In this document: piece by piece, positions 48,057-63,980 of the stretch
How positions within the stretch are numbered: position 1 is the stretch's first letter
Layout: the number at the start of each line of letters is the position of its first letter
DNA from: Thiomicrorhabdus sp. 6S3-12
Lineage (GTDB): Bacteria; Pseudomonadota; Gammaproteobacteria; Thiomicrospirales; Thiomicrospiraceae
NCBI RefSeq assembly: GCF_017571475.1
Contig: NZ_JAGETW010000001.1
Location: forward strand, 310,001 to 374,000
Direction of reading: 5' to 3'
Length of the DNA stretch: 64,000 bases
Notes under the pieces: model-generated
Told to the model about the DNA's origin: nothing
What the model saw: the letters and a program-made list of their open reading frames with translations, nothing else
Databases searched by the model: none
Program-made: the position numbers and the translations under genes

Positions 48057-49361
48057 ATGGCAAACGAAACGATAAAAACTTCGGTATCTGATTCCGGCTC
48101 CGCGGCTTTTAGAAAAGAGTATGCATTAAGAGATATTCAGGCGGGCGTCATTACCGCCACTATGGCGATTCCGCTGTCGATCGGAATCGCTTTGATGTCC
48201 GACTACCCGATCCAGGTCGGTCTGGCGACTGTCGCTTTCGCTTCGTTTATCGGCTTCCTGTTCGCCTGGTTCCGTCCGGGCAACTTCATCGGCGCCCCCG
48301 GTATCGCCGCCGGACTGGCGCCAATCCTCGCGATGGGCGTCGCCACTTTCGGCATCGAAAATATGGCTTTCATTGTCTTCTTGACCGCCGCTTTTCAGGC
48401 GATCATCTGGAAATTTAACTGGCAACGCTATCTGCTGATGGCGGTGCCGGGCTATCTGGTTGAAGGCCTGCTGGCGGGAATCGGCTTAAAGATCGCTTTG
48501 AAATTCCTGCCTTTCCTGTGGATGCTGCCGGTTGCCGCGGCAACAGACGTTTTCTGGACCGAAGAGCGGATTAACGTCGTCGCGCTGTCCGTGATAGGCG
48601 CGATTATTTTCTTTGGACTGTTTCAGCACTTTAAGGACAGCAAACCGGCGCTGCCGTATTTCTCGCTGATCCTTTTCGGTATTGTTTCCGCACTGTTCAT
48701 TGAAGTGAAAATGCTGCACATCGAAGATATCGACTTCAATATCGGCTTCCCGGTGCCGTCATTTGACAGCGCATGGATGTGGCTGTATGCCATTTTCTTT
48801 GCCTTAATGCTGGCCGTGGTCGATGTCATCGAACAGGTCATGAGTAATGCGGCGATTGAAAAAATCGACCCGTTGAAGCGGCCATGTAATTCGAACAACT
48901 CCCTGCTCTCAATCTGGGTCGCCAATATGGGTTCTTCCTTCTTTGGCGGCATGACCAATCTCGACGGCCTGGCAAAATCGTCTACCAACCGTCTGGCCGG
49001 CGCCTATACCAAACTGTCGGTTCTGGTCATCGGTTTACTGATCAGCTTTTTACTCTTTAATCAGGAGTATCTGCACAACCTGCCGTATTTCGCGCTCGCC
49101 ATCATCATGTCGTTTGTCGGCATCAAAATGGCGCTGGGCATTCTGCATATCGCCCACCACGGCCCCTATGCCATGTTGCTCGCCACTCTGTGCGCCATTT
49201 TGGTCTTCAAAGTCGGAATCTTCGAAGGCTTGATTATTACCCTCGCGGTCCACGCGATTATCTATTACGTGATCTTTAAAAGGGTCAACTGCGAGCCGAA
49301 TGGACGCATTATCCGTCGCTATTTCAAGAAATTTAAAAAAGACGAACAAGAGCTTAACTGA
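48057..49361 (+). CDS. SulP-family anion transporter, probable bicarbonate importer
   Basis: The 434-residue membrane protein has the SulP core (GVITATMAIPLSIGIALMSD, then GAPGIAAGLAPILAMG and MTNLDGLAKSSTNRLAGA) but stops soon after the last helix, without the C-terminal STAS domain of classical SulP proteins. STAS-less SulP genes beside carboxysome and dab loci have been proposed as dissolved-inorganic-carbon transporters in Thiomicrospira relatives. The downstream carbonic-anhydrase-like gene supports bicarbonate over sulfate. Divergent from mcdAB. Confidence 0.85.
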   Translation: MANETIKTSVSDSGSAAFRKEYALRDIQAGVITATMAIPLSIGIALMSDYPIQVGLATVAFASFIGFLFAWFRPGNFIGAPGIAAGLAPILAMGVATFGIENMAFIVFLTAAFQAIIWKFNWQRYLLMAVPGYLVEGLLAGIGLKIALKFLPFLWMLPVAAATDVFWTEERINVVALSVIGAIIFFGLFQHFKDSKPALPYFSLILFGIVSALFIEVKMLHIEDIDFNIGFPVPSFDSAWMWLYAIFFALMLAVVDVIEQVMSNAAIEKIDPLKRPCNSNNSLLSIWVANMGSSFFGGMTNLDGLAKSSTNRLAGAYTKLSVLVIGLLISFLLFNQEYLHNLPYFALAIIMSFVGIKMALGILHIAHHGPYAMLLATLCAILVFKVGIFEGLIITLAVHAIIYYVIFKRVNCEPNGRIIRRYFKKFKKDEQELN

Positions 49362-49388: not shown

Positions 49389-49413
49389 GAATAATTAACA
49401 AGGAACTATCTGT

Positions 49414-49962
49414 ATGAGCAATCGTTACCCAATCAGCGGGACTGTCGGCATCGAATGGGATACCGGCCGAAATGTCAGCGTCAGCGGCTTTCAACGCACT
49501 CAAGAGGGTCGCCGTGTGACCCAGCGGGATTTACACGCACCGATCGACACCCCTGTCGCCAATGAGTCGTGTAGCTGTGCGCCCTCTTCGGAAAAACTGG
49601 CCCAGGAACTGTTTAATCTGTGGAATAACTCCCTGCAGAGCGGCGACCCGCAGACAGTGGCGCAGCTCTATTGGGAAGATGCCATTCTGCTGCCGACCGT
49701 CTCAAATGTACCGCGCGTCAATCACGCAGAGATCGAAGATTACTTCCGGCATTTTCTGCAGTCGAAACCGTTCGGTACGATTGTTTCACGGAATCTGAAA
49801 CAGGGCTGCAACAAGCTGACCGATGCCGGTATCTATGAATTCAAAGTCACTAAAAACGGTGAGCAGACAATGGTTCCGGCGCGTTACACCTTTGTATACG
49901 AATACCGCGACGGTCTCTGGAAAATCAGCCATCACCACTCATCAATGATGCCGGAGAAGTAA
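49414..49962 (+). CDS. Putative iota-class carbonic anhydrase (SgcJ/EcaC, CaMKII-AD fold) with CsoS2-like N-terminal segment
   Basis: Residues about 58-182 match the bacterial iota-carbonic-anhydrase pattern as I know it: LFNLWNNSLQSGDPQTVAQL, LLPTVSNVPR, YFRHFLQSKPFGTI, GCNKLTDAGIYEF, ARYTFVYEY and the terminal HHHSSMMPE, with the conserved His and Ser of the active pocket. Bacterial relatives normally have a signal peptide; here there is none. Instead residues 6-25 (PISGTVGIEWDTGRNVSVSG) resemble the CsoS2 C-terminus at residues 665-683, and a Cys-rich spacer (SCSCAP) follows. It lies 52 bp after sulP, probably in one transcript. A cytosolic or carboxysomal CO2/bicarbonate role is inferred; generic SgcJ/NTF2-like function remains possible. 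Confidence 0.8.
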   Translation: MSNRYPISGTVGIEWDTGRNVSVSGFQRTQEGRRVTQRDLHAPIDTPVANESCSCAPSSEKLAQELFNLWNNSLQSGDPQTVAQLYWEDAILLPTVSNVPRVNHAEIEDYFRHFLQSKPFGTIVSRNLKQGCNKLTDAGIYEFKVTKNGEQTMVPARYTFVYEYRDGLWKISHHHSSMMPEK

Positions 49963-50201: not shown

Positions 50202-52658
50202 TTAGTTATGCCAGCTTTGATTGAGATAACGTTCGATAGTGCCGTCTCGATCCCAGCGGAAGCAGTATAGCCATTCGTTATCAATCAACTGACGCACCAC
50301 TTCGTGTTCGCCGACGACTTGTTCGATAAAATCGCGCGGCGCGTCGATATAGACGCTCAGACGCAGAGGTTCATGCATCCAGTTATTACCGTTATGCAGC
50401 GACTGCAACGGCAAACCGATACGCAGGTCGCCGCCGTTGCCCTCAAAGACACCGATCGAGCCGTCAACGACATTGTGCAACACCTTGTTACCGCTGCCGT
50501 ACACATAGTTATCGCACACGGAGGCGTAATACTGCAGATTGATCCAGTTGGTCACAACCATCGGCGCGGTCATGATCTGGGTCAGCAAGGAGACATCATC
50601 GTCTTTCTGCCAGTCATAATCGTGCAGGAATGCCCGCCCTTGGAAGTTTTGCCCGCGGCTGCGCTTACGCGGCGCAACGATAAAGGAGGCGTTGCCGGAC
50701 AGGCCCCATTCCGGGCGAACCTGCGACCAGTCTTTGGCACGGCGGCGAATCGATTCATACACCGCCTCACCCTGCAGATGGTCTAACCCCAGATTCATGG
50801 CACGTTCCTGCATCGACAGTTCCGAAGCACGGACAAACCAGCCTTTCATTTCCTCGTCCAGCTCTTCTGGGCCGTAGAAGGTAAAGGCATCGGTGGTGGT
50901 GTTGTGCATGGCCGCCACAAAACGCGTATTCTCAGGAATCTGTATGCCCTTTTCTTTAAGTCCTGTACGCAATTCCGGGTCATTCAGCAGGAAGCTCAAC
51001 ACCCGCACATTGATTTCACCGGTCTGTCCGCCACAGGCACCACAGTCATAACTTGCCGCGTGCGGGTTATTACAACTGCTACTGCCGTGGCCGACCAGCA
51101 TAACGGTTTCCGCCAGATTCTGATCCAGCCCCAGACCGTGCAAGATACCGGCCGCCAGATTAACCTTATCATCCAGACTCAAAGGCGAGTTATCGGATGA
51201 CAGCTCATAGGCGTCCGCAGTCGGCAGATGGTTGATCGGGTGTTCATGCTCCTGCGGGAAGAAGCTGTTACGCAGCATCTTAAAGGCATACAGCAACCCG
51301 GTCGCTTCAACCATACTGAAAGTTGCCGGTGGCGCATTCCCCCACTCAATCCAGCGCGCTTTTTTATTAAGCGATTTTTTAGTGCCTTGATCGGTCTCTT
51401 GCGACAAGATCGCCTTAACCTGCAATTGCGGTTTCAACAATGCCGGCAACTGCGAGCGCAGTTCTTCAGTCCCCACTGGTTGATAAGCGATCGGCAGACC
51501 GAAGAAACCGGCAAACCCGATCGTTTCAATGCGCGGGTCCTGCGCTTCCAGAGCACGACGAATCACCTCGGAACGCACATCGATACAGAAAGCCGCCTGC
51601 AGTTTCGGCTGGGCTTGCTGTTTTTGAGCGTTCTGCTGATCCGCCTGCTCCAACTGTTGATGCAGTGCCGATTGATAGGCTATTTCCGCCGCTCTCTGCC
51701 AGATCCAGCCTTTTGCCTGCGCCGCTTTATGCGTCTCGATCAATTCCGGCAGAATATTCATCTGATGACGCCACATCACTTTCAGTTCATTAAATACGGA
51801 ACGATCGTGAAATTTCTGGTGCCGCCAAAGTACGCGTTCCCAGGCGATACGGATCGCCAGTAGATCGAGCATCAGATTGTTTTCCACACCGTCGAGACGA
51901 TCCTGCCAACGCAGATAGGCAACCCAGGATGCCCAGCCGTTAATATCCAGCAACAGGGCGTGCGCATAATCTTCAAGACTTTCGTCGGTCACACGCAACA
52001 CCGTCAGCGCTTCGGCCACAAGCTCTTCCGCCGTATCCGGAAGACTCATAAACTGCTCGGTCAGACCGTCTTCGGCCATCAGAATCTCAATCCCTTTGTC
52101 CTGACGCGTCGTCGCCAGCCATTCGCTGTACAGCCCTTGATAGGTCTCGGCATAGGACGCCGTGTGCTCGCGATAACGGAAAAAGTCGGCGCAGAACTGG
52201 CTGATCTGATGAGTAATCTCGTCACGCCACGCCATCTTGTATTTCCGATCACGGCCGCTGTCAACAAAGTCACTGATATTGTGCCAATGCGTATGCTCGT
52301 CGTCTTCAATCAGAAAACGTTCGAGATTTTCAATCGTATAGTCTGCACCGGACTCTTCGATCGCCTGCTTCAAGTGCTGCGGAGAGACCATCTCCATCCA
52401 CACCTCTTGAAAGTAAGATTTCGGCATCAAGCACTGCGCCTGACTCAAGGCGGTCAATTTAGCGGAAACTTCGGTAAAGTGCTGCTCTCGCATCTCCCAC
52501 CAAGGGTTTACCGCCACTAACTCGTCCAACGGCCAGGTCGGCGCAATTTTGCTGCACGCAGATTTAAGCTTTTCCCTCTGCCCTGCTGATAAATCCGGAA
52601 TCAACGGGCGGGCTTGTGCCTCCCCATAAGAGGTCGGCGATTTATTCATCGCTGTCAT
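50202..52658 (-). CDS. dabA: DabA, beta-carbonic-anhydrase-like subunit of the inorganic carbon pump
   Basis: DabA (DUF2309) works with membrane DabB as an energy-coupled system that traps CO2 as bicarbonate in the cytoplasm. The 818-residue protein keeps the zinc ligands: Cys358 and Asp360 in FCIDVRSE, His524 in LVGHGSSSC and Cys539 in YDCGACGG, matching C351/D353/H524/C539 of the characterised Halothiobacillus protein. Its ATG overlaps the dabB stop (TAATG). A terminator follows. Confidence 0.95.
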   Translation of the reverse strand: MTAMNKSPTSYGEAQARPLIPDLSAGQREKLKSACSKIAPTWPLDELVAVNPWWEMREQHFTEVSAKLTALSQAQCLMPKSYFQEVWMEMVSPQHLKQAIEESGADYTIENLERFLIEDDEHTHWHNISDFVDSGRDRKYKMAWRDEITHQISQFCADFFRYREHTASYAETYQGLYSEWLATTRQDKGIEILMAEDGLTEQFMSLPDTAEELVAEALTVLRVTDESLEDYAHALLLDINGWASWVAYLRWQDRLDGVENNLMLDLLAIRIAWERVLWRHQKFHDRSVFNELKVMWRHQMNILPELIETHKAAQAKGWIWQRAAEIAYQSALHQQLEQADQQNAQKQQAQPKLQAAFCIDVRSEVIRRALEAQDPRIETIGFAGFFGLPIAYQPVGTEELRSQLPALLKPQLQVKAILSQETDQGTKKSLNKKARWIEWGNAPPATFSMVEATGLLYAFKMLRNSFFPQEHEHPINHLPTADAYELSSDNSPLSLDDKVNLAAGILHGLGLDQNLAETVMLVGHGSSSCNNPHAASYDCGACGGQTGEINVRVLSFLLNDPELRTGLKEKGIQIPENTRFVAAMHNTTTDAFTFYGPEELDEEMKGWFVRASELSMQERAMNLGLDHLQGEAVYESIRRRAKDWSQVRPEWGLSGNASFIVAPRKRSRGQNFQGRAFLHDYDWQKDDDVSLLTQIMTAPMVVTNWINLQYYASVCDNYVYGSGNKVLHNVVDGSIGVFEGNGGDLRIGLPLQSLHNGNNWMHEPLRLSVYIDAPRDFIEQVVGEHEVVRQLIDNEWLYCFRWDRDGTIERYLNQSWHN

Positions 52659-54214
52659 TAGTGATATAACTCCTCTTTAGGAACCTGTAACTTTTTAGGC
52701 TTAAAACGCACCGGCAAACGAGTCGGGTAAATACGCAAATTCAAACGCGTTACCAACTCATCGAGATAAAAACCGGCGTAGAATGCGCGGCGAACTTTCG
52801 CCATCCACGGTAGATGCTGGAAGTAGCGCAACAGAATGTATCCCGCCATGAACAGCATCAATAGGAAAGCGATCCATAGATCTCCGGCCCAGCCGACACT
52901 GGTCGGCAGATTTTCGACAAAGAAACTCAAGCTCGATTTCTGAATGCTGTAGACGATCAACAGGAATGCCGCCAGACCGATAATTTCCGGCAAACCGGCC
53001 GTCCAACTGCGACCGCGACGCTCGGCGATCAACAACGTTAGAGCAATGGCAAACAGTAACCACGGGCTATAAGGCTCCGGAACCTGCATCGCGACAGCCA
53101 GACCGCCAACCAAGCCGATTGAAACCAATCCGGCAATCGCCCAGTCTTTGACCTTTGGGGTTTCCGACTGTGCCAAACGGCGTTTCATGCTCGCTTCCAC
53201 CTCGGAACCGGAGTTGAGGAAGGCGTAGGCCTTGTAGCAAGAGTGCGCAATCAAGTGCAGCAGCGCCAATTCAAATAAGCCCAGAGCGCACTCGACCATC
53301 ATCAAGCCCATCTGCGACATGGTTGACCAGGCCAGACGTACCTTGACCGACGCACGGGTCATCATCACCAAAGCAGCCAGTACCGTAGTGACCCCACCAA
53401 CAATCAGCAGCATCCACTGAGCGACATCAGACATGACAATCAGCGGCGCAAAGATAATCAGCAAGTAACCGCCAAGGTTGATAATCCCGGCGTGCAGCAG
53501 CGCGGAAACCGGTGTTGGCGCTTCAACAACCTGAATCAACCAGCCGTGCAACGGCAGTTGCGCGCATTTAATCAAAGCGGCTAACGCCAACAGGAGCGCG
53601 GCAAACTTGTCCCAGTTACTCAAAACATCCGATGCCTGAACATTGCCGTAAATCTCGCTGATGAACCAGGTATTGTGCTCGTAATACAGAATCAACACGG
53701 CACCCAGCAGACATGCCTCGGCAATGCGCGCGAAGATATATTTCTTATAAGCGGCCAGCACCGCTCTCTGACGGTTCGGGTAGAAGATCAGCAGTCGATG
53801 CAGGCTCAGAGTGATCGCCAGCCAGCCGGACGCCAGAACCAGCATATGGTTGGTGGTAATAACGATCGCCACGCTGCCCAAGGTCACCAGCAGCCAGCGC
53901 AGATAGCGCTTCTCGTCTTCGGAATTTCCGGACATGTAGCTGCGCGAATAACCGATATTGATGAAACCGATAAACGTCACCAGACCTAACACGATCAGAC
54001 TCGCATCGGACGCTACGGTCCAGCGGCGATCGTCGCTGAGCGAGATCCAGTCAAACGAGATGGCGATTCCCAGAAACACCGCCAGCATAAAGCCGACAAG
54101 GGTAACGCCTCTGGCCAGACTCCAGCTTGCTCTTCGCTCATTGGTGATCGCCGCCACAAATAAACTTAACGGGATAAACCATGGCATTAAGGTGCCAATC
54201 CACTGCATGCTCAT
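52658..54214 (-). CDS. dabB: DabB, NDH-1 subunit-5-like membrane partner of DabA
   Basis: The 518-residue protein has about 13-14 membrane helices of the proton-conducting NuoL/MrpA type, with the conserved LPLHGWLIQVVEAPTPVSAL helix and Lys/His positions in the channel (LIKCAQLPLHGW, LIAHSCYKAYAFL). It anchors DabA and probably supplies proton-motive coupling. It is translationally coupled to dabA. A motif shared with the sulP control region lies 134 bp upstream. Confidence 0.94.
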   Translation of the reverse strand: MSMQWIGTLMPWFIPLSLFVAAITNERRASWSLARGVTLVGFMLAVFLGIAISFDWISLSDDRRWTVASDASLIVLGLVTFIGFINIGYSRSYMSGNSEDEKRYLRWLLVTLGSVAIVITTNHMLVLASGWLAITLSLHRLLIFYPNRQRAVLAAYKKYIFARIAEACLLGAVLILYYEHNTWFISEIYGNVQASDVLSNWDKFAALLLALAALIKCAQLPLHGWLIQVVEAPTPVSALLHAGIINLGGYLLIIFAPLIVMSDVAQWMLLIVGGVTTVLAALVMMTRASVKVRLAWSTMSQMGLMMVECALGLFELALLHLIAHSCYKAYAFLNSGSEVEASMKRRLAQSETPKVKDWAIAGLVSIGLVGGLAVAMQVPEPYSPWLLFAIALTLLIAERRGRSWTAGLPEIIGLAAFLLIVYSIQKSSLSFFVENLPTSVGWAGDLWIAFLLMLFMAGYILLRYFQHLPWMAKVRRAFYAGFYLDELVTRLNLRIYPTRLPVRFKPKKLQVPKEELYH

Positions 54215-54550: not shown

Positions 54551-55519
54551 TTACAAAACCCGGCTCATGGCTTCCTGTTCGAGCTGAATATAGTTACGGC
54601 CCTCTTCCTGCAGAAACTCGAGGAATTCCGAAGCCAGTAGCGAAAGTTCCTTTCCGGACGGATAAACGATATTCCACTGTTTCTGAATCGGGAAGCCTTC
54701 AACGTCCAGTTCGACAACCGGACCTTCACGATCCTCAAGATAAAGGGCATGTCGCGAAACGCAGGCGACGCCCAATTCTCCGACCACGCAATGCTTGATC
54801 GCTTCGTTCGTATTCAGCGTCAGGCGTTCATTCACCACCAACTCTTTTTCCGCGAAGACTTTCTCAATCGCCCGACGAATCCCCGAGCCCTCTTCACGCA
54901 TAATGAACGGCTCTTTCGCCAAACGTTTCAGGCTGACCTTTTTACCGACCAGCGCATTATTGCGGTTAGCGATAATGACCAGCGGATTCGGTGCAAACGG
55001 CAAGACTTCCAGGTCCTGGCTGTTATGCGGAATCTGCCCGAGAATATACAGATCATCCATATTGTGATCGATACGCTTGTGCAGGGTTTCGCGATTACAG
55101 ATCGTCAGATCAAGATCGATATCGGGATATTTCTTACAGAATTTACCCAGCGCGATCGGAATAAAGTACTTCGCCGTCGAGATAACCGCGACACGCAGCT
55201 GCCCTCGCTTCATGCCGCGAAAATCATCCAGCATAATCTCCAGGTTCGAGAAATGGTTTATTACCTCGCGACAGCTGCAGGCAACCTGTTCGCCGACCTC
55301 GGTCAGATAGATATTTCGCCCGATCAGTTCGTACAGAGGCATATCGATGGCCTCAGCCAGACTTTTTACCTGCGCTGAAACCGTCGGCTGGGTCAAATGC
55401 AGCTCTTCGGCCGCACGGGTAAAACTCAAATTACGTGCAACCGATTCAAAGACCTGAATCTGGCGTAAAGTCGCATGCCTGATTAAAAAGTTTTTCTGTA
55501 CCGGAAGATTGTCGTTCAT
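54551..55519 (-). CDS. LysR-family regulator of CO2 fixation (CbbR/CcmR type)
   Basis: The 322-residue protein has the N-terminal winged helix (ATLRQIQVFESVARNLSFTR, then LHLTQPTVSAQVKSL) and a LysR co-inducer domain with FIMREEGSGIRRAIE. This sequence type matches CbbR/CcmR regulators of Rubisco, carboxysome and carbon-uptake genes. It lies 12 bp after csoS1D and upstream of dabBA on the same strand, so it is embedded in its likely regulon. Whether it acts on cbb, cso, dab or sulP cannot be told from sequence. Confidence 0.87.
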   Translation of the reverse strand: MNDNLPVQKNFLIRHATLRQIQVFESVARNLSFTRAAEELHLTQPTVSAQVKSLAEAIDMPLYELIGRNIYLTEVGEQVACSCREVINHFSNLEIMLDDFRGMKRGQLRVAVISTAKYFIPIALGKFCKKYPDIDLDLTICNRETLHKRIDHNMDDLYILGQIPHNSQDLEVLPFAPNPLVIIANRNNALVGKKVSLKRLAKEPFIMREEGSGIRRAIEKVFAEKELVVNERLTLNTNEAIKHCVVGELGVACVSRHALYLEDREGPVVELDVEGFPIQKQWNIVYPSGKELSLLASEFLEFLQEEGRNYIQLEQEAMSRVL

Positions 55520-55531
55520 AGTAAAAACCCT

Positions 55532-56158
55532 TTATTTCGCATGCCCGCGGCACGTTAGTTTAGACAGAGCTTCATTCGCCGCTCTTGCCGCTTCATTAAT
55601 ATCTTCTTCCTTACCGCACATCAGCAGTCGACCGTAAGCCCCGACCGCGCGCGCCTCGACCAGAGTCACATTGGCCGCCTTTTCCGCCTCGTTCGCCGCA
55701 TAGATAATATAGCCGGCTGGTTCTGTCTCCATAATGAACATACTTTGCCCCGGCAAAATCATCGAGCCCTTGCGGTTGTCGCGGTTGATCAGGGTCGCAT
55801 GGTCTGCAGTGACCCCTCTGATCACTTCGCTCCACATCACCACACACTGCTGACGGTCATACTCATGCGTATTAAGATGCTTAAGCATGTGCTTTCCGCT
55901 CTCGAGAACATCGCTCTGATCACGGTGGTGGATTACCGTCGATCCGTAGGCCCTTTCAACAATCTGCTGGGCCAGACGGACATTCGAAGCCTTAAGTGCA
56001 ATGTCCGACAGACGATGCACCGCCATTCCGGGAGCGACTTCAACCCACAGACAGGAGTCGCCCGGAATCGGCAGGAATCCCATAGAAGCCGTCGCCATAT
56101 AAGAGGCGAGCTGCGGCTGCAGAGAATCCAAAAACACATAGGTTCTCAATTCAATCAT
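55532..56158 (-). CDS. csoS1D: CsoS1D tandem-BMC shell protein (trimer, gated pore)
   Basis: The 208-residue protein contains two bacterial-microcompartment folds in tandem: residues about 1-105 with permuted features and about 106-205 ending in [31 protein letters not shown]. CsoS1D forms pseudohexameric trimers that stack and have an openable large pore for metabolites. Its start overlaps the rdgB stop by 4 bp. It is placed outside the main cso operon, as in several chemoautotrophs. Confidence 0.88.
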
Positions 56159-56773: not shown

Positions 56774-57181
56774 CTACCCGCGTCCGTTCGGTACCACCAA
56801 CTGCTCTTTGGCTGAAAACATCATCACCGGAAAATCGTCATCGGAAATCTGTTTCATTTTCTGTTTCAGCGTCAGTTGTTCTTTCTGATTCACATTGAGC
56901 ATAAACATAATGCTTCTGCCCGAGCCTTGCTTTTTGATCGCTTCGAACTCCGGGCCGGGATCTCCGTGCACGTCGCAAACGGTAAACGAACCCAATCCGA
57001 GTTTTTTCAAAGCCACCGAGATCTTGCCCTCCATCAGGCGGTTGGCAAGAATCTGAATCATATCTCCGGGTCTGGAAGGCGGCAGATCATCCGCCTGAGT
57101 CATTGACGAAGCTGTCGCTCGATCAACACTCGAATTAAAACTCCACATTTCCCCATCGTAATTATCTTCTATCCACTTCAT
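56774..57181 (-). CDS. PII-like protein, probable carboxysome-associated PII (CPII)
   Basis: After an N-terminal extension of about 40 residues, the 135-residue protein follows the PII ferredoxin-like pattern: strand and helix MIQILANRLMEGKISVALKK, GLGSFTVCDVHGDPGP (compare GVxGxTVxEVKGFG of PII), a shortened T-loop, strand SIMFMLNVNQKEQ and C-terminal VMMFSAKEQLVV. CPII proteins occur in chemoautotroph carboxysome loci and bind bicarbonate and adenine nucleotides. The T-loop uridylylation Tyr is absent. It leads the PII-rdgB-csoS1D-lysR operon, with AGGA before the ATG. The call is by pattern rather than strong identity. Confidence 0.65.
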   Translation of the reverse strand: MKWIEDNYDGEMWSFNSSVDRATASSMTQADDLPPSRPGDMIQILANRLMEGKISVALKKLGLGSFTVCDVHGDPGPEFEAIKKQGSGRSIMFMLNVNQKEQLTLKQKMKQISDDDFPVMMFSAKEQLVVPNGRG

Positions 57182-57805: not shown

Positions 57806-58080
57806 GCCTGTGCTCCTTCGATAAGACTACCGGTGACACGATGGAAACCGTCATCAATCCCTTTTGCCAAGGCAAAATCCACATCGTCAAGCTCATCGGC
57901 CTGTGAGTAGATAATCACCGAGACGTGCTCTCTCCCGAAACTGATATTCGGGTGATGTTCGAGTTGATCCGCCTGTTCTGCAAGTTCATCCAAAAAACTG
58001 CGCAGTTTTTCAAAGTTGTCAAATTCAAAACGTGCTTCCATGCTCGCGGGTTTCTGTTTCAGTTTCCATCGTTCATTCAT
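57802..58080 (-). CDS. Alpha-carboxysome Rubisco assembly factor acRAF (pterin dehydratase-like)
   Basis: The 92-residue protein has the pterin-4a-carbinolamine dehydratase fold, with LEHHPNISFGREHVSVIIYS and DDVDFALAKGID. In carboxysome operons this degenerate dehydratase acts as a Rubisco folding or assembly chaperone. It overlaps the ferritin-like gene upstream and mcdB downstream by 4 bp each, a tightly coupled block. Confidence 0.88.
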   Translation of the reverse strand: MNERWKLKQKPASMEARFEFDNFEKLRSFLDELAEQADQLEHHPNISFGREHVSVIIYSQADELDDVDFALAKGIDDGFHRVTGSLIEGAQA

Positions 58081-58625
58081 ACAAAGCTCCTAGTTGGCTG
58101 ATAAGCCTGTGTCATATTGTGGAAGTACTCTTCCAACCAAGACTGTACTCTCATCAACTGTGTATGCTCTTCTTCCAGTAATCGGCTAAAAAGTGCATGA
58201 TCTTCATGAGCGCCAAAATTGGCGCAATACTGCGAAGCTTCAGAGTAAAGCTGAATCAGAGCGACTTCGCGCTCTTCACAACTTCTTAAAGCTTCAGCGA
58301 TATTAGTCGCTGGACCGGCAGGACGTAAAACGCTCCCTGCCGGCAAAGCTCCCTGCGCAACCATTCGATCAGTGATCAGATTGGCGTGCTGGAACTCTTC
58401 ATTTGCCAAGGTGACAAAACCTTCCGCAAAAGAGATTTCTTGGCGGAATTTTGCCAACGAAGCCTGTGCGAGATAGTGCTGACCGGCGGAGAATTCAAGA
58501 CTCAAAGCGCGTCCAAGATAACCAAGAATCTGACTGTTTACAGAAACCGTCTGAGCCTGTGGTACTTGAGGGTGAGCGCCTAGTCCCGGCATCACACTGC
58601 CCGGCATTCTAGAAGAATAATGCAT
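58077..58625 (-). CDS. Carboxysome-operon ferritin-like protein
   Basis: The 182-residue protein has a flexible 27-residue N-terminus and a four-helix ferritin-like bundle: ALSLEFSAGQHYLAQAS, FVTLANEEFQHANLI (ExxH), EEREVALIQLYSEAS and LLEEEHTQLMRVQSW (ExxH). Bacterioferritin-like proteins recur in cso operons; a link to carboxysome redox or iron supply is proposed but unproven. The iron-ligand Glu and His positions appear intact. Confidence 0.83.
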   Translation of the reverse strand: MHYSSRMPGSVMPGLGAHPQVPQAQTVSVNSQILGYLGRALSLEFSAGQHYLAQASLAKFRQEISFAEGFVTLANEEFQHANLITDRMVAQGALPAGSVLRPAGPATNIAEALRSCEEREVALIQLYSEASQYCANFGAHEDHALFSRLLEEEHTQLMRVQSWLEEYFHNMTQAYQPTRSFV

Positions 58626-59081: not shown

Positions 59082-59372
59082 TTATTTCTGCTCTACAGTC
59101 AGAACCGGTTCAACTTCTTTGTGCGGGCGTGCAATGATGTGCGCCGCAACCAGACCGTCACCAACACGCTCACAAGCATCTGCACCGGCACGAACCGCTG
59201 CGTTTACCGCACCCGTCTCACCACGAACCATAACCGTAACGTAACCGCCGCCGACGAACTCGCGAGATACCAGGCGTACTTCTGCTGCTTTAGTCATCGC
59301 ATCAGCCGCTTCAATCGCTGGAACCAAACCACGCGTCTCGATCATTCCTAGTGCAATACCGTAATCACTCAT
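59082..59372 (-). CDS. csoS1A: CsoS1A hexameric BMC shell protein
   Basis: The 96-residue BMC-domain shell protein (GMIETRGLVPAIEAADAM, REFVGGGYVTVMVRGE) differs from the neighbouring paralogue at 59458 by one residue near the C-terminus (VEQK against VESK). Assignment to A rather than C follows the Halothiobacillus order C-A-B. A ribosome-binding site AAGGAG precedes it. Confidence 0.92.
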   Translation of the reverse strand: MSDYGIALGMIETRGLVPAIEAADAMTKAAEVRLVSREFVGGGYVTVMVRGETGAVNAAVRAGADACERVGDGLVAAHIIARPHKEVEPVLTVEQK

Positions 59373-60305: not shown

Positions 60306-61889
60306 CTAAGCGGTTCTACGTTTTAATGCAGAATCCATCTCTTTTGCCACCAACTCCGCTGGCTTGCTGTCAGTGAAATCTCGCAGAGTCGCCATGGTTT
60401 GCAATAAACCTGACTCCGCCAGTTCCTGATAGCGGCTACGCAGAGCCTTCTCTATGCGCAAAGCCTTCGCCCGCGCGCGGTCTTTTGACCCCGGAACCCG
60501 TCCGTCGTAATCGCAACGGATAATGATTGGAATCGGTAGCAGGCGCTTGATATTCAGACCTTTAAAGATCTTGATACCCACATCTACGTCATTGACCCCT
60601 TCTTCAACCGTGTCGAGGAAGCTGTAGTAGGTCAGATTACGCAGCTGTACCTCTTCAAATCCATTACCGATTCCGATAAATCGTTCGGCATGTCCCAAGT
60701 CACTGTAGCAACCGTTTTCATATTGATTGACATAGGCAATCTGCGAAAAATTGTTGCTGATCAGCCAGCGAATCAATTTCATGACTCCCGGCTGTGGAGC
60801 CGAAGCTCTCATTAGCTGGTTACAGCTGCTAATCGCTGTTTGCAAAAGTTCATTTGCTTCGTCTTCAGACAGGTCCATGGTTGCCTGATAGAGCTGATCG
60901 GTTTCCACATAACGCTGCAAATCGATCTCGCCGTTGCCATCAGGAATATGCACCTTCATGCTGTCGTCGTCGGTATTGAGCCCTAACAGGATGGTCTGTA
61001 CCGTTGAGCCACAACCGAAGCGGTTTTCAATCGCCTGTCTGAAGTCCTGTAATTTCTGTAAAGCGGCTTTCGCTGCTTTGTGGTCATCACTGCCGTGTGC
61101 TGCACAACCCTGATGAGTTGGATCAGCCTTTGAAAAGTGATATACCGCTATCTTCAAATAACGCGTCGGTTCGTCAGCCGAATTCGGCTTGCCGTCTCTA
61201 AAACGCGTATGTTCAATAAATACCCAGTTTCGAACGCTTTCGCTGATATCGAAGAGTGATCCCGCATGGGCCTTTCTTCGCACCGCCGCGTAAGGCAGTC
61301 TGAGTACGTAGCTCACGATATGGGCAAGACGTCCGTCTGCACATGGCGCGATACCTACTGCATGAAACCCAGCTTCTCGAAAGAGTTGCTCAGCTTCTTG
61401 TGTCCGTTGTCCCGCGAGGGGATCGTTGTTAAAGAACTCTTGCGACATTCTTAAAAATTGTGCAAAGAGGGTTTTCGCATACAGTTCCTGGAAGCCAGTC
61501 TGAAATTGCATATTCAATCCCGCCTGCCAATCCTGATCTGTTAAGGTCACACCCAGCTTTGCATACAGCTGTTGGTTTGCCCAACCGATAAAACCGTTCT
61601 GTCCACGTTGTAATAAAATGTCTTTTAAGGTCGTTTCGATTTCATCGAACCGCGCTTTTATTTCCACTTCATACTGCCGAAGCAGCTGGTTTTGTCTCTC
61701 GTCAACTAAAGCATGGGCGCCTGTCATCAGCGCTGAGAGAGACTCTCTTGTATTGGTTTGCTTCTTACTGCCTAAGCTCTCCCCGGAAACACCATGAGCG
61801 ATTGGCATCTCCGGTTGTGAACGCTTAGGGGGCGTAATCGGCCTCCAAAACAATGACCTTTGACGATGACTCTTTTTATTTCGATTCAT
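60306..61889 (-). CDS. csoSCA: Carboxysomal carbonic anhydrase CsoSCA
   Basis: CsoSCA (CsoS3) dehydrates bicarbonate inside the shell. In the 527-residue reading the zinc ligands are Cys183 (PCADGRLAH, with Asp185 and Arg187), His251 (VYHFSKADP) and Cys262 (HQGCAAHG), matching the spacing of C173/D175/R177/H242/C253 in Halothiobacillus. The disordered basic N-terminus (MNRNKKSHRQRSLFW) is the part that binds Rubisco in related systems. The start ATG ending at 61889 is 5 nt after GGGTG; an ATG four codons upstream (61901) is the alternative. Confidence 0.95.
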   Translation of the reverse strand: MNRNKKSHRQRSLFWRPITPPKRSQPEMPIAHGVSGESLGSKKQTNTRESLSALMTGAHALVDERQNQLLRQYEVEIKARFDEIETTLKDILLQRGQNGFIGWANQQLYAKLGVTLTDQDWQAGLNMQFQTGFQELYAKTLFAQFLRMSQEFFNNDPLAGQRTQEAEQLFREAGFHAVGIAPCADGRLAHIVSYVLRLPYAAVRRKAHAGSLFDISESVRNWVFIEHTRFRDGKPNSADEPTRYLKIAVYHFSKADPTHQGCAAHGSDDHKAAKAALQKLQDFRQAIENRFGCGSTVQTILLGLNTDDDSMKVHIPDGNGEIDLQRYVETDQLYQATMDLSEDEANELLQTAISSCNQLMRASAPQPGVMKLIRWLISNNFSQIAYVNQYENGCYSDLGHAERFIGIGNGFEEVQLRNLTYYSFLDTVEEGVNDVDVGIKIFKGLNIKRLLPIPIIIRCDYDGRVPGSKDRARAKALRIEKALRSRYQELAESGLLQTMATLRDFTDSKPAELVAKEMDSALKRRTA

Positions 61890-61916
61890 CACAACACCCA
61901 TTTTTTAGTATTAAAG

Positions 61917-63980
61917 TTAAGCTCTGGCACCACCTGATAAAGTTACTTTCGCCCCCGTATCGGTATTACCTGAAGAGCCTGTAATCGGGCTCATAGGAAC
62001 CTCACTGTTCTGTGGTCGGAACTGGCTGGCTCCCATAGGAGATTGCCCTCTTTGACCGCGAACTGATGAGTTGCGTTGCGCAGCCCATGGACCTTCGGTA
62101 CCAGTGACTTTGCTTCCGCGATCCCAACCGTCGCCGGTAATTTTTGCGCCTTGTTCGACTGCTTCTTCAACAGTCGGCATAGGTGCAGCTTGTGCCATAG
62201 CCGGAGCTATTGGCTGAGCCTGAACTGGAGCCTGTGCTGCGCCCATCATCTGCGGAAAATCCGATTCACCTGGAATCGCCGCATTGTTGGAGTCACATAC
62301 CATGGCCGTTTGCTCAGGACCCTGATAGTTCGTACCGGATACCAGCTGGCAAGCCCCTTTTTGTGCTCCAGTCAGCCCCTGTAATCCAGGTTGAACACCT
62401 GAGACAGCTTTGTTAGCGCCTTGACGCTGACGCACTTTCATCTCATTTTGTTGATCGACTGAACACAGTTGCGACTGTTCGGCACCGGTATAGGGCGTAC
62501 CAGTTACCGCTTGGCAGTCACCTGCTTCCGCGCCAGTCATTCCAATCGAGCCACCGCTACGTTCACCGGTAATTGACTGTCCACGAGTCGTCGCAGAGGC
62601 TGTCACTTTAATGGCTGGTTTCGGCATTTCGACGTCACACGCCTCAGCTTCTTCCATCCCTTGATAGCCGGTTCCCGTTACGGATTTACACGCTCCCTTT
62701 TCACTCCCGGTGACCGCTTCAAGTCGCCCTACCTGGGTACCTGTCGTGGTGTTACCGAGAGACGTCTGCGAAGGCATCACTTTTTTTGGCGCCTGTGCAG
62801 GAGTCTTTGGTTTAATTGTTGTTGATTGCGAGCTGCGGTTTTCGCCGCCGCTGGTAATCTTGTTTGCCTTACTCTGCGCCGGCTGAGACATTACCGAAAA
62901 CCCGGTTTTCTTAGCTTTTGCAGGCTCGCCACCGCAATACATCTGGCTTTGATCAGCCGGCAGATACTCTGTACCTGTAATCGCTGAACAAGTCCCTACT
63001 TCATTGCCGGTCATGCTTTCACCGCGTCCAACCTTGGTTGAACCGCTTACAATCTGGCCGCGAGTTGTTTGCGTTTGCGTTACTTTTGCCGGCTGGGCGC
63101 TTGGCTGAGTCTGGCAGTTTTTTGCAAACTCTTCAGAACCTAGATATTCGGTTCCGCTGACCAATTGACATGCACCGGTTTCAGCGCCTGTCATCTTTTT
63201 TTCGCCCTGACCTACCATCGTGCCTGAAACAGTCTGACCACTCAGGGTCTGCGATTCCTCTACTTTAGAGGGCGCCGCAGTTTGACTGTTGCGTTGCTGA
63301 CGCGTTGGACGGGTCGTACCAGTCGAACAAGTCTTGCCGCGTGAACATCTTTCTGCACGTACTTGCTTGGCAATATCGCGAGCGGATGCATCCGGGTTAG
63401 CCAATTTGGCTTTGGCACCCGATTGGTTGCCGCCTTTTGACTTGAATGCATCTTGCGCAGCCTTACCTTTAGCCTGTGCTTGACGATACGCTTTTGACTG
63501 CAGACGTCCGCCGGATTGAACTTGATTCGCTTGCGGTTTCACTTGCGCTCGACCGTTACTTGCACGTTCTGCGCGTGGTGCTGGCGCAATCGTTTCAGTT
63601 CTTTCTTGCTTGGCCTCTACAATCGGCTCAACGGGTTTACGTTGCGCTCTTGTTCTTTGAGGTTGAGTCGTATTTGCTGAAGTTGCACTCTTCCCATTCT
63701 TCTGCTGCTGTCTGCGTGCCTTAGCCGCGTTGCGGCCAGCCGCCGATGCTGTGTCAGCAGCGGCAACCGGATTTACTCCACGACGAGGACGACGAGACGG
63801 TTCAGATGAAGTAGAAGTTGTGGCAACCGGCTCGACTGCCGTCTCAACTACAGGTTCCGGACGCTGTCGGCGACGCGGTACTGCCGGAGCAGCTGCCGCT
63901 TGCGAACCTTTTCCTTGTACCTGAGCTTTACGACGTGCAACCGCTGCAGCTCGACCGCTTTGAGCATTACTTGTACTCAT
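61917..63980 (-). CDS. csoS2: CsoS2 carboxysome scaffold
   Basis: The 687-residue intrinsically disordered scaffold links Rubisco to shell. The N-terminal third has about four basic Rubisco-binding motifs (GRAAAVARRKAQVQGK, GRNAAKARRQQQKNGK, SKAYRQAQAKGK, ARDIAKQVRAERCSRGK). The middle has five repeats built on VxG, TGxxxGxC and a second Cys (for example AVTGSEKGACKSVTGTGYQG). The C-terminus has KITGDGWDRGSKVTGTEGPW and a final SPITGSSGNTDTGAKVTLSG. It is shorter than the 869-residue Halothiobacillus protein. A candidate -1 frameshift site lies between repeats 2 and 3. AGGAGG precedes the ATG. Confidence 0.95.
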   Translation of the reverse strand: MSTSNAQSGRAAAVARRKAQVQGKGSQAAAAPAVPRRRQRPEPVVETAVEPVATTSTSSEPSRRPRRGVNPVAAADTASAAGRNAAKARRQQQKNGKSATSANTTQPQRTRAQRKPVEPIVEAKQERTETIAPAPRAERASNGRAQVKPQANQVQSGGRLQSKAYRQAQAKGKAAQDAFKSKGGNQSGAKAKLANPDASARDIAKQVRAERCSRGKTCSTGTTRPTRQQRNSQTAAPSKVEESQTLSGQTVSGTMVGQGEKKMTGAETGACQLVSGTEYLGSEEFAKNCQTQPSAQPAKVTQTQTTRGQIVSGSTKVGRGESMTGNEVGTCSAITGTEYLPADQSQMYCGGEPAKAKKTGFSVMSQPAQSKANKITSGGENRSSQSTTIKPKTPAQAPKKVMPSQTSLGNTTTGTQVGRLEAVTGSEKGACKSVTGTGYQGMEEAEACDVEMPKPAIKVTASATTRGQSITGERSGGSIGMTGAEAGDCQAVTGTPYTGAEQSQLCSVDQQNEMKVRQRQGANKAVSGVQPGLQGLTGAQKGACQLVSGTNYQGPEQTAMVCDSNNAAIPGESDFPQMMGAAQAPVQAQPIAPAMAQAAPMPTVEEAVEQGAKITGDGWDRGSKVTGTEGPWAAQRNSSVRGQRGQSPMGASQFRPQNSEVPMSPITGSSGNTDTGAKVTLSGGARA
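62781..62787 (-). promoter_or_regulatory. Candidate -1 ribosomal frameshift heptamer in csoS2
   Basis: On the coding strand the codons CCA AAA AAA GTG contain A-AAA-AAA in the phase needed for tandem slippage (X-XXY-YYZ). A -1 shift leads to nine new codons (SDAFADVSR) and a TAA, giving a product of about 410 residues. A short CsoS2A made by -1 frameshifting is known from Halothiobacillus. Confidence 0.55.

Follow-up and report, generated by a model that had tools for sequence, protein, structure and literature searches.

The 64,000-nucleotide stretch of Thiomicrorhabdus sp. 6S3-12 analyzed here (contig NZ_JAGETW010000001.1, positions 310,001 to 374,000; the window, in whose coordinates all positions are given) encodes an iota-class carbonic anhydrase (iotaCA), whose N-terminal tail carries short (V/I)(S/T)G words resembling those of the alpha-carboxysome scaffold CsoS2. 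Sequence comparison suggests that this is a carboxysomal enzyme, and we consider it likely that the tail words dock on the inner face of the CsoS1 shell hexamers and that the enzyme is thereby carried into the lumen, where it would provide CO2 to Rubisco; what we infer is that the enzyme is encapsulated in this organism, docks on the shell and is catalytically active. The first-pass annotation of this DNA had proposed that the enzyme is targeted to the carboxysome and is a second carbonic anhydrase beside CsoSCA. Good support for this part comes from co-occurrence, synteny, the clade to which the enzyme belongs and the absence of a signal peptide, none being visible by eye in the window iotaCA, as the annotation had noted. 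The CsoSCA of the window is present at full length, therefore the iotaCA would indeed be the second enzyme.

The decisive pattern is the co-occurrence of the tail with csoS2, which was followed in three partly overlapping samples: the family (62 genomes), a similarity-drawn set (50 genomes) and an even draw of Gammaproteobacteria (369 genomes). In the family, iotaCA was found in 25 genomes, all of which have csoS2, and in none of the 15 genomes without csoS2; 23 of the 25 enzymes are tailed and the remaining two (G021, G001) have an FKBP domain instead. Among the similarity-drawn genomes, csoS2 is present in 23/25 with a tailed enzyme versus 0/25 with a tail-less one, the two tailed exceptions being metagenome-assembled genomes (MAGs), namely L037 (a 1.1 Mb MAG) and L060 (on a 3.7 kb contig). 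This set covers 50 of 53 loci outside the family, since L068, L077 and L087 were omitted as near-copies; L090 lies in the same genome as L089. In the even draw, where csoS2 occurs in 72 of the 369 genomes overall, 25 genomes had a match, with csoS2 in 9/10 tailed versus 0/15 tail-less cases (Fisher 5e-6). If the tail-less side is restricted to the eight matches with E of at most 3e-49, the counts become 9/10 versus 0/8 (Fisher 4e-4), and both Fisher values ignore kinship. Seven of the 15 tail-less matches are of E 6e-28 or weaker, and L204, L206 and L209 may be other NTF2-like proteins; when the sequences were read, no motif was seen upstream of the core in any of the 15 tail-less genomes. The only tailed genome of this draw without a csoS2 match, G168, has the same tail as L037 and both are probably the same organism. 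The samples overlap because G000, G053 and G058 and, judging from coordinates or tails, G227, G268 and G332 occur in other samples as well; clearly new are only three of the ten tailed genomes (G378, G451 and G471), and the tail of G451, which belongs to yet another family, reads VTGTPFI...RRSLSAS...HPVSGD. Tail-less relatives look cytosolic or, by eye, carry a signal peptide. The first-pass annotation had asked for this comparison of motif and csoS2, and the counts favor it, as the motif was not found equally in the iotaCAs of genomes without carboxysomes.

Phylogenetic analysis points in the same direction. Of 94 loci, all but L092 (frameshifted) and L094 (truncated) were read as frames of an iotaCA. 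In a tree of 79 iotaCA cores (121 columns, identical cores entered once), tailed enzymes and Thiomicrospira iotaCAs group in a single clade (support 99/96). The sole break in this clade is L051_a, a Thioalkalivibrio paralogue without the tail, which bears a signal-peptide-like start in its place. The sister group consists of FKBP-fused enzymes and one secreted-looking enzyme, and the simplest reading of these sequences would be that the tail was gained once and exchanged once. In Thioalkalivibrio thiocyanoxidans ARh2 (L051 10001-11085), L051_a and a tailed iotaCA adjoin each other. In some Thiomicrospira-like genomes (L027, L028, L029 and L042 11945-12469) there is a second iotaCA near cso genes, which sits on a long branch and has kept the first word of the tail and lost the third.

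In Thioalkalivibrio-type and Thiomicrospira loci, and in some of Thiomicrorhabdus, the iotaCA gene is part of the cso cluster. In the window it lies 12.0 kb from csoS2, and the interval is filled by dabAB, the cbbR-like gene, the csoS1D-like gene, ham1 and cso genes, which places it within the extended carboxysome cluster. It is the single iotaCA-type match in the genome at E 0.001, and the near relative G051 shows the identical gene order with 91-100% identity.

The reading frame was confirmed as first annotated, with the ATG at 49414 and the iotaCA blocks LLPTVSN, ARYTF and HHHSSMMPE. Pfam assigns the protein to the CaMKII_AD/SnoaL NTF2-like group (PF08332, 5e-15). T95, Y110, H175 and S177 are invariant in 45/45 aligned iotaCA sequences, and together with the His-His-Ser-Ser motif these catalytic Thr, Tyr, His and Ser residues are those expected of the iota class. 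By motif they were paired with T106, Y124, H197 and S199 of the cyanobacterial iotaCA all2909, the mutation of which inactivates that enzyme according to the available part of PMC8132391. The nearest solved structure, the NTF2-like protein 3h51 from Xanthomonas campestris (47% identity, Foldseek E 2e-16, phmmer 7e-32), matches only the core of the window iotaCA (residues 62-181); carbonic anhydrase activity of 3h51 was not confirmed, as far as the accessible text of PMC8132391 goes. In the AlphaFold2 model the core is confident and a tail of about 45 residues is unstructured and of low confidence.

A pair of cysteines (C55 and C132), scored by windows around the two places, is present in 56/56 rows of the clade, FKBP and secreted types included, and as a pair in 0/23 other iotaCAs. 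It is a candidate redox switch or disulfide: its distribution suggests a disulfide retained from a secreted ancestor, which perhaps forms once the carboxysome lumen turns oxidizing.

What stays constant in the tail is I-(S/T)-G-T and a Ser in the second element, in most cases joined by a third (V/I)TG; the window tail belongs to a distinct subclade with ISGTVGIEWD. Four residues are invariant in the aligned tails, and two of them are the I and G of the (V/I)(S/T)G word, in the window I7-S8-G9, which has the triplet form of a CsoS2-type shell-binding sequence. Words of this kind are ligands of CsoS1A, and CsoS2 binds the shell less well when they are mutated (PMC11365436, as far as available); moreover, in CsoS2 the (V/I)TG words contact His79 of CsoS1A (PMC10484944, available in part); this partner histidine is present in the window CsoS1 as H78. 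In 7/7 comparisons the nonsynonymous difference (pN) of residues 1-29 was lower than the synonymous one (pS) and also lower than the pN of the linker residues 30-41, a sign of constraint.

The first-pass annotation had compared the tail with the CsoS2 C-terminus (about 10 identities in 22), and for this genome the alignment is real. The optimal local alignment of PISGTVGIEWDTGRNVSVSGFQR with PITGSSG-NTDTGAKVTLSGGAR has 11 identities in 23 columns and a BLOSUM62 score of 43, which 0/5000 shuffles of the tail reached when aligned to the final 30 CsoS2 residues and 14/2000 when aligned to the whole of CsoS2. Among the 423 stop-to-stop frames of at least 60 residues in the window, the iotaCA came first after CsoS2 itself. 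As a family statement the match is weaker, its DTG part being limited to near relatives. At the level of profiles, Thioalkalivibrio-type tails matched the CsoS2 middle repeats with P 5e-4, and both tail types matched the repeats of the CsoS2 C-terminal domain (CTD) with P 0.006-0.012, with 0/150 column permutations as good in each case. Of nine profile comparisons, five gave 0/150 and a sixth 2/150; the remaining three were those with the terminal peptide. Guyparkeria-type tails show a local likeness of ISGTRFLSADD to VTGTEYLSSED of CsoS2. Taken together, the sequence profiles provide weak to moderate evidence for a likeness between tail and CsoS2.

As a family-wide rule the label "CsoS2 C-terminus" was rejected as too narrow, because what the tails share is the (V/I)(S/T)G-T word with a second and often a third element, which is nearer to the repeats of the middle region and the CTD. 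The tail resembles these repeats and the C-terminal fragments F1-F3 (PMC10484944 and PMC11365436, each available in part) in that a disordered chain carries (V/I)(T/S)G words; it differs from CsoS2 in having far fewer words (two or three), another spacing and no conserved Tyr, and in being N-terminal and fused to an enzyme.

Several results weigh against the proposed shell docking or its CsoS2-like basis. The words of the tail are spaced by about 14 and 28 residues versus 8 in the CsoS2 repeats, the tyrosine of those repeats is not found in the tails (one clade has Phe), and the third word is VTQ in the clade of the window itself. In 4/7 comparisons the pN of the tail exceeded that of the core. 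Searched against 13 genomes, a hidden Markov model (HMM) of the tail significantly matched eight proteins (E up to 2e-13), every one an iotaCA, and did not find CsoS2; the HMM built from the CsoS2 C-terminus matched nine, all of them CsoS2, with the next match at E 0.09 and no iotaCA. With hhalign, tail and CsoS2 C-terminus matched at P 0.049 and a probability of 1%, and against the terminal peptide 5/150 and 7/150 permutations were as good for the two tail types and 16/150 for all tails together. The better profile matches are short, rest on few columns and have probabilities of at most 31%. For the within-genome comparison of tail and CsoS2, a selection of 32 genome pairs was entered and 31 were usable (G073 was dropped because its signal-peptide paralogue had been taken); at most 10/1000 shuffles were as good against the own CsoS2 C-terminal 30 residues in only 6/31 (G000, G015, G050, G065, G067, G081), and at most 6/300 against all of CsoS2 only in G000, G066, G068 and G086. 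In 11/31 genomes the score against the whole of CsoS2 was no lower for the catalytic core, the longer of the two sequences, than for the tail. Furthermore, 22 of the 47 csoS2 genomes of the family are without an iotaCA match, and in 9 of its 23 tailed genomes (G009, G015, G024, G025, G028, G034, G042, G048, G050) the gene is remote from csoS2 or located on a different contig, with no cso genes seen beside it.

Short words are common, and the failed HMM and terminal-peptide tests, together with the many genome pairs that do not exceed shuffles, would fit a tail with some other role, such as folding, oligomer contacts or redox control, the likeness to CsoS2 words being coincidental. We regard this as improbable, considering that tail presence tracks csoS2 in all three samples, that L051_a has a signal-peptide-like start just where the tail would be, and that the profile comparisons with the internal repeats withstood permutation. 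The tail is also not needed for folding, because tail-less relatives are stable families. Among the 13 genomes no other protein with the tail was found, the best match of the tail HMM below the iotaCAs having E 0.08.

The proposed shell docking would work as follows. The NTF2-like core, judging from its conserved active site, should interconvert CO2 and bicarbonate. The disordered tail would serve as a short multivalent binder for the inner face of the shell, its (V/I)(S/T)G-type words, two to three in number, docking on the CsoS1 hexamers like those of CsoS2, and shell assembly would then carry the enzyme into the lumen in the same way as GFP fused to the CsoS2 C-terminus; this 278-residue stretch brings GFP into shells (PMC7595155, available in part). 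Inside, the iotaCA might supply CO2 to Rubisco beside CsoSCA, or replace CsoSCA in lineages that lost it. A cytosolic carbonic anhydrase would undo the bicarbonate pool built up by SulP and the DAB pump, an argument of Price and Badger 1989 taken from the available part of a citing paper, and a signal-less carbonic anhydrase in such a cell should therefore be confined. Classical bacterial microcompartment (BMC) encapsulation peptides likewise sit as a short tail at a terminus of a cargo enzyme, with a linker after them; however, they are short helical domains (PMC12339742, in the part available), and the iotaCA tail is predicted to be disordered, the AlphaFold2 model showing no helix in residues 1-59.

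The tail might also reach the carboxysome through another partner, be it Rubisco, as for the N-terminus of the Halothiobacillus CsoSCA, CsoS2 itself or a minor shell protein such as CsoS1D or CsoS4. CsoSCA does enter through Rubisco as far as the literature was available, co-occurrence and clade fit such a route equally well, the profile likeness to CsoS2 is modest, and in three loci of Guyparkeria and a relative (L054-L056) the gene is near csoS1D. Still, two of the four invariant residues belong to a known CsoS1A ligand and no Arg-rich Rubisco motif of the type in the N-terminal domain of CsoS2 was seen by eye in the tails, so that we hold this route to be rather unlikely.

The first-pass annotation had also offered a tether to the outer face of the shell, which the enzyme would feed with bicarbonate from SulP. 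The least probable of the alternatives in our view is that the enzyme stays in the cytosol, at this outer face or at the membrane, where it would handle bicarbonate with SulP and the DAB pump. The sulP gene ends 52 bases upstream, dabA adjoins on the other side, the same order is found in L212, and sulP-iotaCA also in L030. The outer-face variant is disfavored because the (V/I)TG words of CsoS2 bind the inner face, according to partly available sources, and because adjacency to sulP is rare: of the 35 tailed loci L030-L064, one has a window-like sulP directly beside the gene and four have it somewhere in the locus, although a divergent sulP could have been missed. Co-occurrence with csoS2 speaks against it as well.

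CsoSCA and the iotaCA are both carbonic anhydrases of alpha-carboxysomes with an N-terminal recruiting stretch, which in the case of the iotaCA is our proposal; CsoSCA, however, is of the beta and not the iota class and is recruited via Rubisco in H. neapolitanus, as far as accessible sources tell. CsoSCA (PF20686) was found in 37/48 tailed genomes (15/23 in the family and 22/25 outside it). It was not found in eight genomes of genus-g6, in G062, in the MAGs G063 and G082, or in the FKBP-type genomes G021 and G001. Genus-g6 is Thiomicrospira-like, and its member G060 corresponds to Thiomicrospira sp. ALE5. In the FKBP-fused forms (L211:6202-6924 of G021, and L065:9746-10441 on the G001 contig, Thiotrichales bacterium 35-46-9; PF00254, 5e-8 and 2e-5) the gene sits inside a cso cluster without a csoSCA match, and the fusion may be a second, tail-free way for an iotaCA to replace CsoSCA.

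According to citing papers, Wieschollek et al. 2024 (AEM 90:e01075-24) reported an iotaCA in Thiomicrospira carboxysomes, and Thiomicrospira is the only genus for which we know of such a finding. The Thiomicrospira enzyme (Thiomicrospira sp. ALE5, L042, genus-g6) is of the same clade and tail type as that of the window and its gene is in or near a cso cluster; in contrast, the window has a full-length CsoSCA besides, and its tail is of the ISGTVGIEWD subclade. Thiomicrospira and some Thiomicrorhabdus cso loci are listed without csoSCA (PMC9164163), and csoSCA-less Thiomicrospira loci carry an iotaCA (PMC12628692, citing Wieschollek 2024), both texts being available in part. A carboxysomal iotaCA is thus already known, and what may be new is the tail. 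The statement of the first-pass annotation that it knew of no description of such a fusion calls for correction in this respect. In the literature searched, which did not cover Wieschollek 2024 itself, we found no description of the tail as a CsoS2-like targeting signal, nor one of a tailed iotaCA coexisting with CsoSCA.

More broadly, a cargo enzyme may have taken over the shell-gripping words of CsoS2, giving a transplantable N-terminal import signal of about 30 residues in at least four carboxysome-bearing gammaproteobacterial groups, placing two unrelated carbonic anhydrases in one carboxysome and enabling the repeated loss of CsoSCA; this wider picture could, in our judgement, equally well hold or fail. 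No explanation of how iotaCA enters carboxysomes was found in the partly available literature searched, and a tail of CsoS2-like words would be a directly testable answer. It would give cargo loading a more compact tool than the CsoS2 fragment of 278 residues, lead one to expect that many sulfur oxidizers run two carbonic anhydrases in one shell, and offer a route for repeated CsoSCA loss, as in Thiomicrospira and, with the FKBP-fused form, the lineages of G021 and G001.

Features of the iotaCA gene and of its surroundings in the window
Feature	Position	Strand	Remarks
iotaCA with N-terminal (V/I)(S/T)G tail	49414..49962	+	182 aa, ATG start
Disordered tail, residues 1-45	49414..49548	+	predicted local distance difference test (pLDDT) block means 41-55; conserved across clades
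First shell-binding-type word, I7-S8-G9	49432..49440	+	I and G invariant in 23/23 aligned tails
Second element, V21-S-V-S-G25	49474..49488	+	Ser22 invariant in 23/23 aligned tails
Third element, V35-T-Q	49516..49524	+	VTG/ITG in most other clades
C55 of conserved Cys pair	49576..49578	+	
NTF2-like catalytic core, residues 60-180	49591..49953	+	alignment and predicted fold
C132 of conserved Cys pair	49807..49809	+	
Shine-Dalgarno-like AAGGA	49400..49404	+	read from sequence
SulP-family transporter gene	48057..49361	+	same strand as iotaCA
DabA, inorganic carbon pump subunit	50202..52658	-	family search
DabB-like membrane subunit	52658..54214	-	named from sequence and neighboring dabA
LysR-type regulator (CbbR-like, putative name) and BMC-domain protein (CsoS1D-like)	54551..56158	-	extended cso cluster
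CsoS1 hexamer protein	59082..59372	-	H78 = CsoS1A His79 (offset +1 to 2ewh)
CsoSCA with N, catalytic and C domains	60306..61901	-	full length
CsoS2 scaffold	61917..63980	-	C-terminal stretch 61923-61988 aligns with iotaCA tail

The sulP and iotaCA genes are probably cotranscribed. The opposite strand carries dabA, the dabB-like, CbbR-like and csoS1D-like genes, ham1, genes for acRAF-like and ferritin-like proteins, the csoS1 copies, csoS4A/B, csoSCA and csoS2; dabB, cbbR and the two small genes csoS4A/B were named from sequence and gene order alone. Within the cso cluster, a frame of 135 residues (56774-57181, minus strand) has no Pfam or NCBIfam match and is 97% identical in G051, and the Pfam match of the ferritin-like protein (58077-58625, minus strand) begins at residue 36. 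Further away, a ParA-type ATPase (NF041546; 46555-47187, minus strand) is about 58-64% identical to the parA product of Thioalkalivibrio-type cso clusters; we presume that it could be a carboxysome positioning factor of the McdA type. A relative of this ATPase is also encoded near the distant iotaCA gene in L036 and L039.
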